From contig NC_013790.1 of the NCBI RefSeq assembly GCF_000024185.1, forward strand, positions 2,293,001 through 2,357,000: a stretch of DNA of 64,000 bases, given 5' to 3'. The position numbers and the translations under genes were made by a program. Every line of letters begins with the position of its first letter. The stretch's first letter is position 1. Shown here piece by piece: positions 34,255 to 40,913 of this stretch. Under the pieces are notes generated by a model. It was not told where the DNA came from. It did not search any database and worked only from the letters and a program-made list of their open reading frames with translations. Source of the stretch: Methanobrevibacter ruminantium M1 (GTDB taxonomy: Archaea > Methanobacteriota > Methanobacteria > Methanobacteriales > Methanobacteriaceae).

Positions 34255-34563
34255 TTAGTTTTTAAGTTCAATTTCAATACTTACGTTATCTGGAACGTTA
34301 ACTTTCATAACTTGTCTCATAGCTCTTTCGTCAGCACCAATACCGACTAAACGTTTGTGAATACGGAGCTCCCATTTTTCCCAAGTAGCTTTTCCTTCTC
34401 CATCTGGAGATTTTCTAGTAGGAACAACTAATTTTTTGGTAGGTAATGGAATAGGACCGGAAATATCTACACCAGTTCTTTCAGAGATTTTCTTTAATTG
34501 GTCACAAACATAGTTAAGTTTTTCAGGATCAGTTCCAGTAAGCTTAATTCTTGCTTGATTCAT
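34255..34563 (-). CDS. rpsJ: 30S ribosomal protein S10 (uS10)
   Basis: 102-aa uS10, a small-subunit head protein. It begins [20 protein letters not shown] and has the conserved loop [11 protein letters not shown], then a basic C-terminal half. In archaea rpsJ follows the EF-1alpha gene, as here. GGGAGGATTAAAAC precedes the ATG. The 325-bp gap to tuf contains a perfect hairpin, so S10 may also be expressed separately from tuf. Confidence 0.96.
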
Positions 34564-34888: not shown

Positions 34889-36130
34889 TTATTTTTTGTC
34901 AGTAACTTTAAGACATAAACCAGCAGCTACGGTTTGACCCATATCTCTGATAGCGAATCTTCCCATAGGTGGGATGTTAGCAGCTTCTTCCATAACCATA
35001 GGTTTGGTTGGTTTGATTTGTACGATAGCTGCGTCACCAGTCTTAATGAAGTCTGGTTTGGTTGCTTCAGGTTGACCGGTAGCAGGGTCAAGTTTGGAAG
35101 TTAAGTCTAAGAAAGTACATGCAGTTTGTGAGGTGTGACAGTGGAATACAGGGGTGTATCCAACGGTGATTACGCCAGGGTGTTGTAATACAACAACTTG
35201 TGCAGTAAATTCTTTAGCTACAGTTGGAGCGTCAGCAGTGTGTCCAGCTACGTCTCCTCTTCTGATATCGTTTTTACCTACACCTCTTACGTTGAATCCG
35301 ATGTTGTCACCAGGTTCAGCTTCAGGGAAAGTTTCGTGGTGCATTTCGATAGATTTTACTTCTCCGGAAACTCCAGCAGGTTCGAAGATAACGTTGTCTC
35401 CTTGTTTCATGATACCAGTTTCTACTCTTCCTACAGGTACGGTACCTACACCAGTGATGGAGTATACGTCTTGAATAGGAATTCTTAATGGTAAGTCTAC
35501 AGGTTTTTCAGGTGGTACTAATTTGTCTAAAGCAGTCATTAAAGCGTCACCTTTGTACCATGACATGTTGCCAGAGAGTTCTTTGATGTTGTCTCCTTCA
35601 AATGCAGACATAGGGATGAAAGGAGTGGAAGCAGGGTCTCTACCGATGGATCTGAGTAAGTCGGATACTTCGTCTTTTACTTCGTTGTATCTGTCTTCGC
35701 TGTAGTCAACCATGTCCATTTTGTTGATTGCGATGATTAATTGTTTAATACCTAAAGTCATGGATAAGAACATGTGTTCTTTGGTTTGTGGCATTACACC
35801 GTCGTTAGCAGCTACTACTAATACAGCTGCGTCAGCTTGGGAAGCACCAGTAATCATGTTTTTAACGAAGTCTCTGTGTCCAGGACAGTCTACTACAGTG
35901 TAGTCGTATTTGTTGGTGGAGAATTTTTGGTGAGCTAAGTCAATGGTTACTCCTCTTTCTCTTTCTTCTCCTAATTTGTCCATAACAAATCTGAATTTGT
36001 CTTCACCTTCATCTAATTGTTGTTCAGCGATAGCACCAGCTTTTAATAATAAGTGTCCTACTAAAGTGGATTTACCGTGGTCAACGTGTCCAATAAATGC
36101 TAAATTTAAATGTTCTTTTTCTTTTGCCAT
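34889..36130 (-). CDS. tuf: Elongation factor 1-alpha
   Basis: 413-aa archaeal EF-1alpha, the GTPase that brings aminoacyl-tRNA to the ribosome. The P loop is [15 protein letters not shown], switch II is [12 protein letters not shown], and NKMD gives guanine specificity. Domains 2 and 3 follow with the usual archaeal sequence. The length is normal for methanogens. GAGGTTTTAAA precedes the ATG. A TATA-like stretch at about 36359-36368 on the minus strand suggests its own promoter with a leader of roughly 200 nt, and another TATA-like site is near 36190. Confidence 0.98.
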
Positions 36131-36768: not shown

Positions 36769-38964
36769 TTATCCTAAGTAGTGGTCCGGACCGAATGGTT
36801 CAGGAGCCAATCCTTTTCTTTGTCTAATTTCTCTTACAATTTGACCTTGCAATTCTCTTGGTAATCTTTCGAATCCAGAGTTTTCAGTAGACCATAAACA
36901 TCTGCCTTGAGTTGCAGATCTGATCTCACCAGCAAAACCAAACATTTCAGCTACAGGTACTTTAGCTTCAACATTTACCATATCACCTTCAGTTGGCATG
37001 TCGATGATTTGACCTCTTCTGTTTAGGATTTCCTTAGTAACAGATCCCATATAGTCAGTTGGGGTGTTAATGAATACCTTTTGAACAGGTTCAAGTAATG
37101 TTGGGTCAGCCATCATCATACCACCCTTAATAGCGTTACGGATAGCAGGCAAGATTTGAGCAGGTCCTCTGTGAACTGCGTCTTCGTGAAGCTTTGCATC
37201 TACAAGAGTGAATTTCATTCCCATTGCAATCTCGTTTGCAACTGGACCTTCTTCAAGTGCAGATTCGAAACCTTCAATGACAAGCTCCTTGATCTCATCT
37301 AAGTATTGGATACCACGGGTCATGTTGATGAATAAGGACTTGTTGTAAACATCCCATACTCTTCTAGCTTCTTCCTTGTCAAGGCCGTGGTCAATGAATT
37401 GTTGAGCTTCTTCTTTAGCTTTGATTTTACCTTCCTTGATGTCACCGTTTTGCAATGCTTCAAATATTGAATCGTCTAAAGGTGAAACTTCAAGGTATAA
37501 TCTGTTATGCTTGTTTGGAGATTTACCTTCTACAGGGTTTGGAGTTTTTCCTGCAACAGTTTCTCTGTATACAACAATAGGTTCGGAAGTGAGGATGTCT
37601 ACACCCTTATTGTTGATTCTTACACCAATAACTTCCAAGTGAAGCTCTCCCATACCTGAAACTAAGTGTTCACCGGTTTCTTCGTTAATGTTAACGTGAA
37701 TGGTTGGGTCTTCTTTTGCAGTTTGTCTTAACACTTCAATAAGCTTAGGTAAGTCCTTAGTGTTTTTAGCTTCTACAGCAACGGTAACTACAGGTTCGGA
37801 GATGTGTTCGATTCCTTCAAACTCTACAATCTTGTTTTCAGGAGAACAGATGGTTTCCCCAGCGGTAGCTCCTTTTGCACCGGTAATGTAAACAATGTTA
37901 CCAGCTGGAACCTTTTCAGTAGGAACTCTTTCAGGACCGAAGAAAACACCTACTTGCTGTACTCTGGATCTTGCTTGACCTCCTACTAAGTAGACTTCAC
38001 TACCTTGTTCTACAGTACCTCCGTATACTCTACCGGTAGCAACTTCACCAGCGTGCTTATCTACAGATACGTTGGTTACCATTACAGCTAAAGGTCCGTC
38101 AGGGCTGGTATTAATCATAGTTTGACCAGCTTCGCTTTCAATGTCTCCATCCCAAATGTTAGGACATCTGTATTGTTGGGAAACTTCAGGGGATGGCAAG
38201 TGTTCTACTACCATACCTAATAATACATCAGCTAAAGGTACTTTCTTAGCTAATTCTTTTTGATTTTCATCATTACAGTAATCGATAATGTCTTTGAAGT
38301 TGATTCCGGTTTCTTGCATCATAGGAATGTTGATAGCCCAGTTGTGGTATGCTGAACCGAATGCTACACTACCGTCATCCACTTTTACAAGCCATTCGTC
38401 TTTCTTATCTTTAGGAGCCATTTTAGTGATTAACTTGTTAGCTTCATTGATAATTCCAATGAACTTGTTTGCTAACTCTTCAGGTCCTAATTTTACTTCG
38501 TTGATTAATCTGTCAACTTTGTTAATGAATAATACTGGTTTAACCTTTTCTCTTAAAGCTTGTCTGAGTACGGTTTCAGTTTGAGGCATGATACCTTCAA
38601 CCGCACATACAACTACTACTGCACCGTCTACAGCTCTCATTGCACGAGTTACGTCTCCACCGAAGTCAACGTGACCTGGAGTGTCGATTAAGTTAATAAG
38701 ATATTCATCGCCATGGTATTCGTGTACCATGGATACGTTTGCAGCGTCAATGGTAATACCACGAGCTTGTTCTTGTTCGTCGAAATCCAAGAATCTTTGA
38801 TCTCCTGCAAGCTCTTCGGAAATCATTCCAGCACCTGCCAAGAGGTTGTCGGATAATGTGGTCTTACCGTGGTCAATGTGTGCACAGATACCTATGTTTC
38901 TGATATTTTTAGGTTGGTACATCAATTCTTTGATTTTTGCAATCATTTTGTCTCGTCTACTCAA
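36769..38964 (-). CDS. fusA: Elongation factor 2
   Basis: 731-aa archaeal EF-2, the translocation GTPase. The P loop is [15 protein letters not shown], switch [18 protein letters not shown] for guanine. The diphthamide His is in [16 protein letters not shown]. The longest frame begins at 38976 (MVMIL), but relatives start [14 protein letters not shown]. That corresponds to a TTG at 38964 which follows GGTGAT at the right distance, so I use it. Follows rpsG in the usual archaeal order rpsL-rpsG-fusA-tuf-rpsJ. Confidence 0.97.
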
Positions 38965-39096
38965 AATCATCACCATATAAACATATGTTTAATTGAAATC
39001 CATTATATTGTCATTCTTAAATGAAATTTTTTAAAAAAATAATAAAAAATTAAAAAAAATAATTAATTAATTTTGAACTGATTCTAAAATAAAACC

Positions 39097-39230: not shown

Positions 39231-39791
39231 TTAGTGTGCTGCTTTTGCAACTCTTTCTTTTTCTTCTTTTTTCTGTAAAGCGAAACTTCTAGTATCTTCT
39301 TCAGAAGCAAAGATGATTTCACTTGCTAAACATTCAGCAACAGATCTTTTGTTTTTGAATGCGGATTGTAAAGTTCCTCTTGTTAAGAATCCTAAAGAAA
39401 GGTCCACTCTTCTTTGTGGAGAAATGTCTACAGCAACTTGGTATCCGATACCACCGTATTTGATACGGGTAGTTTCTTCACGTGGAGAGGTGTTTTCAAT
39501 AGCCTTTACTAAAACTTGAACAGGGTTTTGTTTAGTTCTTCTATTGATAATTTCTAAAGCTTCCTTTACGATATTGTAAGCTTTGTTCTTTTTACCGGAG
39601 TTTCTTTCGGTTCTCATGATTTTGTTCATTAATCTTTCTACGATAGAAACATTGGATTTTGCAAATTGTCTTTTTACGTGTCTTCCTAAGGTATGAGGAA
39701 CAATGGTTTCATCAAGGCAAATGTATCTCTTTAAACCTAAGTCTTCCACTTCCACTTCATCAAGGTCCCATTTGTTAAATAATTTAGCCAT
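39231..39791 (-). CDS. rpsG: 30S ribosomal protein S7 (uS7)
   Basis: 186-aa uS7, a primary 16S rRNA binding protein. Typical segments are RHVKRQFAKSNVSIVERLMN and ARKKxNPVQVLVKAIEN-like sequence (here TKQNPVQVLVKAIENTSPRE), and KYGGIGYQVAVDISPQRRV. GAGGTAATATTT precedes the ATG. It is 14 bp downstream of rpsL, clearly cotranscribed. The last residues (EEKERVAKAAH) are the normal archaeal tail. Confidence 0.97.
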   Translation of the reverse strand: MAKLFNKWDLDEVEVEDLGLKRYICLDETIVPHTLGRHVKRQFAKSNVSIVERLMNKIMRTERNSGKKNKAYNIVKEALEIINRRTKQNPVQVLVKAIENTSPREETTRIKYGGIGYQVAVDISPQRRVDLSLGFLTRGTLQSAFKNKRSVAECLASEIIFASEEDTRSFALQKKEEKERVAKAAH

Positions 39792-39805: not shown

Positions 39806-40231
39806 TTATCTTACAGGTTTATCAATCTTTCCACTTACCATTTCAGATAAGGCAACGTTGTTGACTTTACTTACTTTCCAACGAACTCCAGGAATGTCTC
39901 CCATGGATCTTCCGGATGGTCCGCCGATACCTTCAATCATTACTTCATCGTGCTCATCGATAAAACCGATTGCACCGTCACCTGGTGCGAATGCAGTAAT
40001 TTGCTTACCGTTTTTGATTAATTGTACACGAATACATTTACGGATAGCGGAGTTAGGTTGCTTAGCTTCTACTCCCACTTTTTCAATAACGATTCCTCTT
40101 GCTTGAGGAGCCCCTTCGAGAGGGTCTGCTTTTACATCTAAACGTAATGCTCTTCTTTTATAATCTACGTCTTTCCATTTAAAATTTTGTCTATTCTTTT
40201 TAAGCTTTTTTGCAGCAAAAAGTCCTGGCAT
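39806..40231 (-). CDS. rpsL: 30S ribosomal protein S12 (uS12)
   Basis: 141-aa uS12 of the decoding centre. The conserved core [20 protein letters not shown] and [17 protein letters not shown] are present. The N terminus is the archaeal form ([19 protein letters not shown]). AAGGAGAATAA precedes the ATG. First gene of the rpsL-rpsG-fusA run. In most methanogens nusA lies close upstream, but here a 1.17-kb spacer with structured elements separates them. Confidence 0.97.
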
Positions 40232-40315
40232 ATTTATTCTCCTTTAAAATTTATAGGGCAAAGTCCCATTAAAGTTTTTTGAATAAATTATAAGATTAAA
40301 ATAAATATTCTAAGC

Positions 40316-40504
40316 AAATAGAAATCCACCGCTGCGATTTACTATTATACAATGAATTAATTTAACTGAATATTCTTATTATCGCCACTGGCTGATTAGA
40401 CCAGATTTTTAATATTCTTATCACTGATACTGGCTGATTTAAGCCAATATCCTTAAAATACACAAATAATGAAAATTGTATAATAGCAATCTAAACTTCT
40501 ATTT
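40316..40504 (-). ncRNA. Candidate structured RNA or leader upstream of rpsL
   Basis: Three nested helices pair the ends of a 189-nt stretch: aaatagaa with ttctattt (40316-40323, 40497-40504), gatt with aatc (40336-40339, 40488-40491), and ctattatacaat with attgtataatag (40342-40353, 40475-40486; 12 bp perfect). Inside are two related 30-bp units at 40369 and 40411 sharing aatattctta and actggctgatt, each able to form a small hairpin around the TGGC/GCCA bases. This is a multibranch shape. It lies 85-273 nt before the rpsL ATG on that strand, so a regulatory leader or a separate RNA are both possible. It does not match any RNA family I know. The strand is inferred. Confidence 0.5.
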
Positions 40505-40842
40505 AAGATTAGAATGAAATATAGAATCTAAATAAATAATAAAAAACTAATTGAATTTATTAAATAAATTAAAAAACATACAAATATTATCTTTAATAAA
40601 TACCAATAGTTCTAACTTGAATTAGCATATAAACAAATCTGCTAATTAATTGAAAAATAATATTGTTAAATCTTATTTAAATAAGAGATAAATTACTCAT
40701 AGGTGTCAAAATAAGTTATTTAAGATATATAATAACTAAAATAATGAATCAATTCCTATAAAATATTAGATTTAAAATATAACAATTGCACACACGTTAT
40801 ATTCAAATCAATATGAATTTATCTGTAAAAATGATAGGTAAA

Positions 40843-40913
40843 CTATAAACTGAAAACCATAGCCAAAATGCACACGAAAGCTATTGGTTTTTTAATAATA
40901 AAAAGATTATAGT
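40843..40913. other. Second structured element in the nusA-rpsL spacer
   Basis: aaaaccatagc (40853-40863) pairs with gctattggtttt (40880-40891) with one bulged base; actataa (40842-40848) pairs with ttatagt (40907-40913) outside it. The right arm ends in TTTTTT on the plus strand. Role and strand unknown. Confidence 0.4.

Follow-up and report, generated by a model that had tools for sequence, protein, structure and literature searches.

The locus upstream of rpsL in Methanobrevibacter ruminantium M1 raises the question of what a strongly base-paired stretch of 189 nt does in front of genes for ribosomal proteins and elongation factors, and whether it acts as an RNA at all. In the window, by which we mean the whole 64,000-nt stretch of DNA that was analysed, the element is followed on its own strand by the genes listed in Table 1, and nusA and L30e are located upstream of it on the same strand. 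As judged from sequence comparison, the best reading of the element is that it represents a new, lineage-specific archaeal ribosomal-protein leader.

Table 1. Coordinates in the window of the paired element, its parts and the genes that follow it.
Feature	Position	Strand	Basis or remark
Paired element, Methanobrevibacter ruminantium M1	40316-40504	minus (sense of rpsL)	
P1 helix, 5' strand (AAAUAGAAGU)	40495-40504	minus	pairing; P1 covaries
Internal loop, 5' side (UUA)	40492-40494	minus	A, U or G precedes GAUU in relatives
P2 helix, 5' strand (GAUU, then GCUAUUAUACAAU)	40475-40491	minus	pairing
Apical hairpin 1, AAUCA in loop, genus-specific insert	40426-40451	minus	fold -12.4 kcal/mol
Apical hairpin 2, relative of hairpin 1 (duplicate unit)	40388-40404	minus	unit alignment
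P2 helix, 3' strand (AUUGUAUAAUAGU, bulged A at 40340, AAUC)	40336-40353	minus	pairing, covariation
Internal loop, 3' side (GCAGCGGUGG)	40326-40335	minus	near-invariant in 48 leaders
P1 helix, 3' strand (AUUUCUAUUU)	40316-40325	minus	pairing, covariation
Leader remainder, with GGAG ribosome-binding sequence right before the start codon	40232-40315	minus	sequence
rpsL, ribosomal protein S12 (uS12)	39806-40231	minus	TIGR00982, E 1.2e-78
rpsG, ribosomal protein S7 (uS7)	39231-39791	minus	TIGR01028, E 8.3e-91
fusA, elongation factor EF-2	36769-38976	minus	TIGR00490
tuf, elongation factor 1-alpha	34889-36130	minus	TIGR00483
rpsJ, ribosomal protein S10	34255-34563	minus	TIGR01046

Pairing, strand and conserved core of the element

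The unusually strong pairing claimed in the original prediction was borne out on both strands, and by a larger margin on the minus strand. The minus strand folded at -45.8 kcal/mol against a mean of -30.3 kcal/mol for shuffled sequences (z = -4.14), and the plus strand at -30.7 kcal/mol (z = -3.17), none of 200 shuffles being as good in either case. Identical leaders were counted once in the fold, G-U and box counts, which left 47 distinct leaders out of 48; their helices contained 90 G-U pairs, half of which (45) fall at a single junction pair, versus only 5 A-C pairs. Because G-U is common and A-C is rare in the helices, the rpsL strand was taken as the RNA, and an RNA of the plus strand was ruled out by its weaker fold together with this asymmetry. 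The 12-bp perfect helix that had been predicted is present in the minus strand (CUAUUAUACAAU/AUUGUAUAAUAG, within 40341-40353 and 40475-40487), as are the further pairing beyond it, which corresponds to P1, and the two related hairpins inside it, whose units can be aligned with each other.

Among the relatives, two end blocks of the element are kept and the middle drifts, after which rpsL follows. The conserved core consists of helix P1, an asymmetric internal loop of 3 x 10 nt and helix P2, in which one A is bulged; this A is located four pairs into P2 in the genera g5, g6 and g7. In these three genera, the element measures 63-78 nt as cut for alignment and comprises P1, the loop, P2 and a short tip, and all of the short leaders folded into the core without constraint (35 of 35). 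In the window's genus (g1), a larger domain caps P2 and holds both hairpin units, so that a domain of 80 to 147 nt stands in the place of a tip of 16 to 31 nt (two misplaced anchors were left out of these lengths). The sequence AAUCA is found at the loop of a hairpin with at least five pairs in all 12 leaders from the window's genus, on stems of differing sequence, and two such hairpins occur in tandem in the window. The apical part is perhaps an addition to the core. The 189-nt extent originally proposed is therefore correct as regards the pairing, which is real, but the conserved part is smaller and is confined to the base of the structure (P1, loop and P2); similarly, both hairpin units exist as described but belong to a genus-specific insert outside the conserved part.

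The loop is conserved in sequence, whereas the helices are conserved mainly in pairing. Its 5' side has the consensus UU followed by A, U or G, and its 3' side the consensus GCAGCGGUGG, which is identical in 46 of the 48 leaders. Throughout the 3' side AAAUCGCAGCGGUGGA, the 48 leaders showed two kinds of exception, namely a change of the first loop base from G to A in two leaders of g7 and a single C to U change, which is matched by a G to A change in the partner base. The 3' side of the loop, GCAGCGGUGG, is the probable recognition site, given this degree of sequence conservation.

Compensatory changes, the absence of which had been set beforehand as grounds for rejecting the element, were found in the relatives. 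In alignment A1, which contains 35 of the 36 short leaders (L148 was omitted as a near copy of L147), 91.8% of the cells were paired and 14 of 22 pairs had two-sided changes, a level reached by none of 500 shuffles, and structures slid by 1-3 columns were paired in at most 48.7%. Nine of the 11 pairs of P1 had two-sided changes in this alignment. A tree-based null, in which the substitutions are re-placed on the tree, was also applied; it used the 42 joined arms, out of 48, that are distinct. The mean covariation of the structural pairs was 10.6, as opposed to a maximum of 2.3 in 200 such null alignments, and the top five pairs in the table of listed pairs were all structural, as is pair 23-26, which scored still higher but was kept out of that table by its distance limit. 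Individually, only 4 of the 22 pairs were significant under the tree-based null, and the pairs adjacent to the loop are nearly invariant and hence barely tested by covariation. A different pairing, AUUGCU:AGCGGU, was proposed by RNAalifold from the 12 long leaders alone. It was set aside, since the 35 short leaders and a joint change of GAUU:AAUC to AAUU:AAUU in genome G013 support GAUU:AAUC, and it may exist as an alternative fold in g1 alone, where those pairs do not vary. We conclude that the pairing is genuine and that the element functions as RNA, on the minus strand and in the sense of rpsL-rpsG-fusA-tuf. The functional leader probably extends to the rpsL start at 40231.

Two further stretches near the core were observed. 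On the minus strand of the window at 40255-40315, and also in the g1 relatives, a common AT-rich and partly self-complementary stretch lies between P1 and rpsL and could form a further hairpin. In g5 (L061, L067 and others), a possible hairpin AGAUAA...UUAUCU with a varying loop is located some 30-60 nt upstream of P1.

Distribution and linkage to rpsL

The element is present as a single copy in its own genome, all other matches scoring at most 32.8 bits. A search for the pattern TAAATCGCAGCGGTGGA that allowed up to two mismatches gave matches in 68 of the 140 genomes searched from the order; the 64 genomes with zero or one mismatch all belong to g1, g5, g6 and g7, and 11 places with two mismatches look like chance matches. 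The leader position before the S12, S7 and EF-2 genes that had been assigned to the element was found to be general, as it precedes rpsL in all 63 genomes of these four Methanobrevibacter-type genera in which an rpsL start was found; it is also present in G008, where rpsL is cut by the contig end. When 84,980 species genomes were scanned, 45 stretches were obtained, in 44 of which an rpsL start lies within 300 nt downstream, the sequence of the 45th ending before the rpsL start. The named contigs with the motif are mostly labelled Methanobrevibacter. Two contigs, L185 and L224, are labelled Clostridia bacterium and Treponema sp.; they look misbinned, because the leader is followed in both by an archaeal-type rpsL start.

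The motif was absent from all 43 fetched upstream regions of other genera, one of which comprised 22 nt only; together they represent all but four (G084, G046, G038 and G039) of the 47 rpsL-bearing genomes from other genera. A covariance model likewise gave nothing convincing on the other-genus upstream regions (best E 1.5). Of 151 genomes from the phylum, 60 were matched by a short-form covariance model, once each and in 4 of 20 genera; the long apical domain of g1 caused the model to miss most genomes of that genus, that of the window included. When the window's genus was withheld from model building, the window was nevertheless detected (E 0.0062). No match to the element was observed in viral contigs. 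The search of the window against Rfam 15 gave only tRNAs above the gathering cut-off and, at a lax threshold, four weak matches, all far below the gathering score, in agreement with the earlier statement that no known family could be recognised. The distribution of the leader is very narrow. With its conserved, covarying structure and its constant place before ribosomal-protein genes on the same strand, the element shows two features of a ribosomal leader.

A second element was observed in the spacer between nusA and rpsL, where a hairpin with a GUGUGC loop occurs twice in the window (40788-40793 and 40870-40875, minus strand). Each of the 48 examined leaders that have the core contains GUGUGC ahead of rpsL, and among the genera that lack the core it occurred in g10 (2 of 2), g15 (1 of 1), g16 (3 of 4), g2 (1 of 1), g8 (1 of 2) and g4 (1 of 6). 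It was not found upstream of rpsL in g3 (0 of 11), g18 (0 of 6), g19 (0 of 3) and g17 (0 of 3), nor in the single upstream regions of g9, g11 (22 nt only), g12 and g13. The sequence around GUGUGC folds into a hairpin in many examples, not in all. The hairpin loop GUGUGUGCAA is complementary to UUGCACACAC of 16S rRNA; in its long form the loop complements 16S UUGCACACA(C), a match equalled by 0.4-0.5% of shuffles in a post hoc comparison, and the complementarity of the loop form common in g1 was not above chance (26%). In g3, the rpsL upstream regions (L118-L121, L123-L126, L128, L131 and L132) are devoid of the core and instead share a block conserved among them, AACUCAGUUAAUACUA... and ...ACUUUGAAUAGA, which is perhaps another leader.

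Candidate ligand and competing explanations

Our preferred reading, to which we assign a probability of roughly 0.5 on the analyses presented here, is that the element is a cis-acting feedback leader with S7 as its likeliest ligand. The mRNA of rpsL-rpsG-fusA-tuf would have the element as its 5' leader, and a protein of the operon, most likely S7 (uS7), would bind the internal loop when present in excess over 16S rRNA. Binding would then lower the translation, and hence the output, of the whole operon, conceivably because ribosomes could no longer enter at the nearby GGAG or because the mRNA would decay. S7 is preferred because of the precedent of the bacterial str operon, of which it is the autogenous repressor, binding the mRNA through its determinants for 16S rRNA according to the accessible part of PMC10931766. 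The operon of E. coli contains the same genes, and we propose the same repressor and the same logic, in which excess S7 binds its own mRNA. However, the E. coli site lies between rpsL and rpsG and the present element lies before rpsL. No site of the E. coli type was found between rpsL and rpsG here; as this gap measures about 14 nt, compared with 96 nt in E. coli K-12, there is no room for one, and a site in the leader would serve instead.

The loop strand was compared in two blocks with 16S rRNA (that of G022), and its best match, AAUCGC...GCGGUGAAU, falls in the part containing the S7 site, where, by the numbering that we assume, it presumably adjoins C1378. This nucleotide is cross-linked to K75 of S7, as reported in the available text of PMC3548175. 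Over the whole 16S rRNA, 138 of 1000 shuffles matched as well, and within a 245-nt S7 region, picked after the match had been seen, 2.3% did so. The contiguous identity of the core with 16S rRNA was not above that of shuffles. Against the E. coli S12-S7 intercistronic region, the loop showed no significant resemblance (52% of shuffles were as good), and the 5' strand has 8 letters in common with the intercistronic S7 site (3.2% of shuffles as good), a similarity that we do not count in favour of S7. The likeness between the leader and the S7 site in 16S rRNA is thus only suggestive.

A ribosomal leader of this kind might have another product of the operon as its ligand, either S12 (uS12) or one of EF-2, EF-1-alpha and S10. 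The core scored 13 against the S7 region of 16S rRNA and 12 against other parts, a difference that leaves room for a ligand other than S7, and rpsL is the first gene and directly behind the element in all cases, as would suit S12. To our knowledge, no control of the str operon by S12 has been described, and S12 is not known to us as a primary rRNA binder. Control by S12 is also absent from the account of this operon in the accessible part of PMC10931766, and we consider a ligand other than S7 a tentative option, well behind S7. A riboswitch that senses a metabolite or an ion and controls the translation-factor operon is less probable still. Its attraction is the small, near-invariant, purine-rich loop between covarying helices, which is as much aptamer-like as protein-site-like; however, riboswitches usually precede several metabolic genes, whereas this element was seen only before one ribosomal-protein gene, with one match per genome, and no Rfam riboswitch matched it. 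Slightly below this we place a site for something other than a ribosomal protein, with the GCAGCGGUGG loop serving as a small-molecule aptamer or with the leader and the upstream GUGUGC hairpin reading free 16S rRNA by base pairing, so that the output of S12, S7 and the elongation factors would be matched to rRNA.

We consider it equally doubtful that the element is a ligand-free, constitutive stability hairpin at the 5' end or a translation enhancer. By eye, an AT-rich conserved block with a TATA-like stretch is seen in g1 shortly upstream of the 5' edge of P1, and because of it P1 may lie near the 5' end of the mRNA, although this is only suggestive and concerns g1. Such a hairpin would leave unexplained why the loop hardly changes, being identical in 46 of 48 leaders, when both helices drift. 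Runs of 5-6 U follow P1 in 22 of 30 distinct g5 leaders and do not exceed 4 U in other genera, and we therefore did not adopt transcription attenuation. The independent RNA that the original prediction had offered beside the autoregulatory leader and a riboswitch-like element, for example a modification guide located before rpsL by chance, would agree with the compact, highly structured and conserved nature of the element. It is nevertheless very improbable: no Rfam match was obtained and no break of the linkage to rpsL was seen, and a C/D box guide RNA was rejected, as none of the 47 distinct leaders has a C box TGATGA, let alone one followed by a D box CTGA. A cis-acting leader is favoured over an independent RNA because of the compensatory changes and the constant place before rpsL, and within the three options originally offered the autoregulatory one fits best. 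The terminal inverted repeats look MITE-like at first sight; nevertheless, a DNA repeat, mobile element or chance palindrome is refuted by the single copy, the fixed place across genera, the covariation and the G-U asymmetry, and has a negligible probability.

Relation to known leaders and significance

The element most likely is a new ribosomal leader by its overall look, having a structure tied to one operon and a near-invariant loop between covarying helices. Archaeal ribosomal leaders have been reported by Eckert and Weinberg (2020) for S15 in Halobacteria and Methanomicrobia, for eL15 in Euryarchaeota and for L4 in Archaeoglobi, and some of their leaders imitate rRNA (PMC7247131, accessible text). 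As in the present case, these are covarying RNAs directly before ribosomal-protein genes, mostly in narrow lineages; they differ in operon and ligand, a distinction that we draw from the published description. None of the 20 leaders in the accessible table of PMC7247131 stands before an archaeal rpsL-rpsG, and this leader was not found in the available published text, including PMC7247131 and PMC2864571, although it may be listed in supplementary material. The L1 leader of the archaeal and bacterial L11/L1 operons offers another parallel, since the archaeal mRNA site imitates the rRNA site according to the available part of PMC10931766; it concerns a different protein and operon, and the likeness is one of description. 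The L7Ae leader of archaea, as presented in the accessible text of PMC5539422 and PMC6298567, is similar in that the protein binds a k-turn in the leader of the mRNA that encodes it. Inspection by eye revealed no k-turn in the core of the present element.

Before four archaeal additions, only a handful of archaeal cis-regulatory RNAs had been confirmed or predicted, as stated in the available text of PMC7247131. The throttling by a ribosomal protein of its own synthesis through its own leader would be a type of control with few known archaeal examples, and the core described here is a small RNA suited to structural work on RNA-protein recognition. A separate origin of str-operon feedback in archaea and bacteria becomes testable with this element. 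In the methanogens of the rumen and gut, a leader acting on S12, S7 and both elongation factors would show how the parts of the ribosome are kept in balance.
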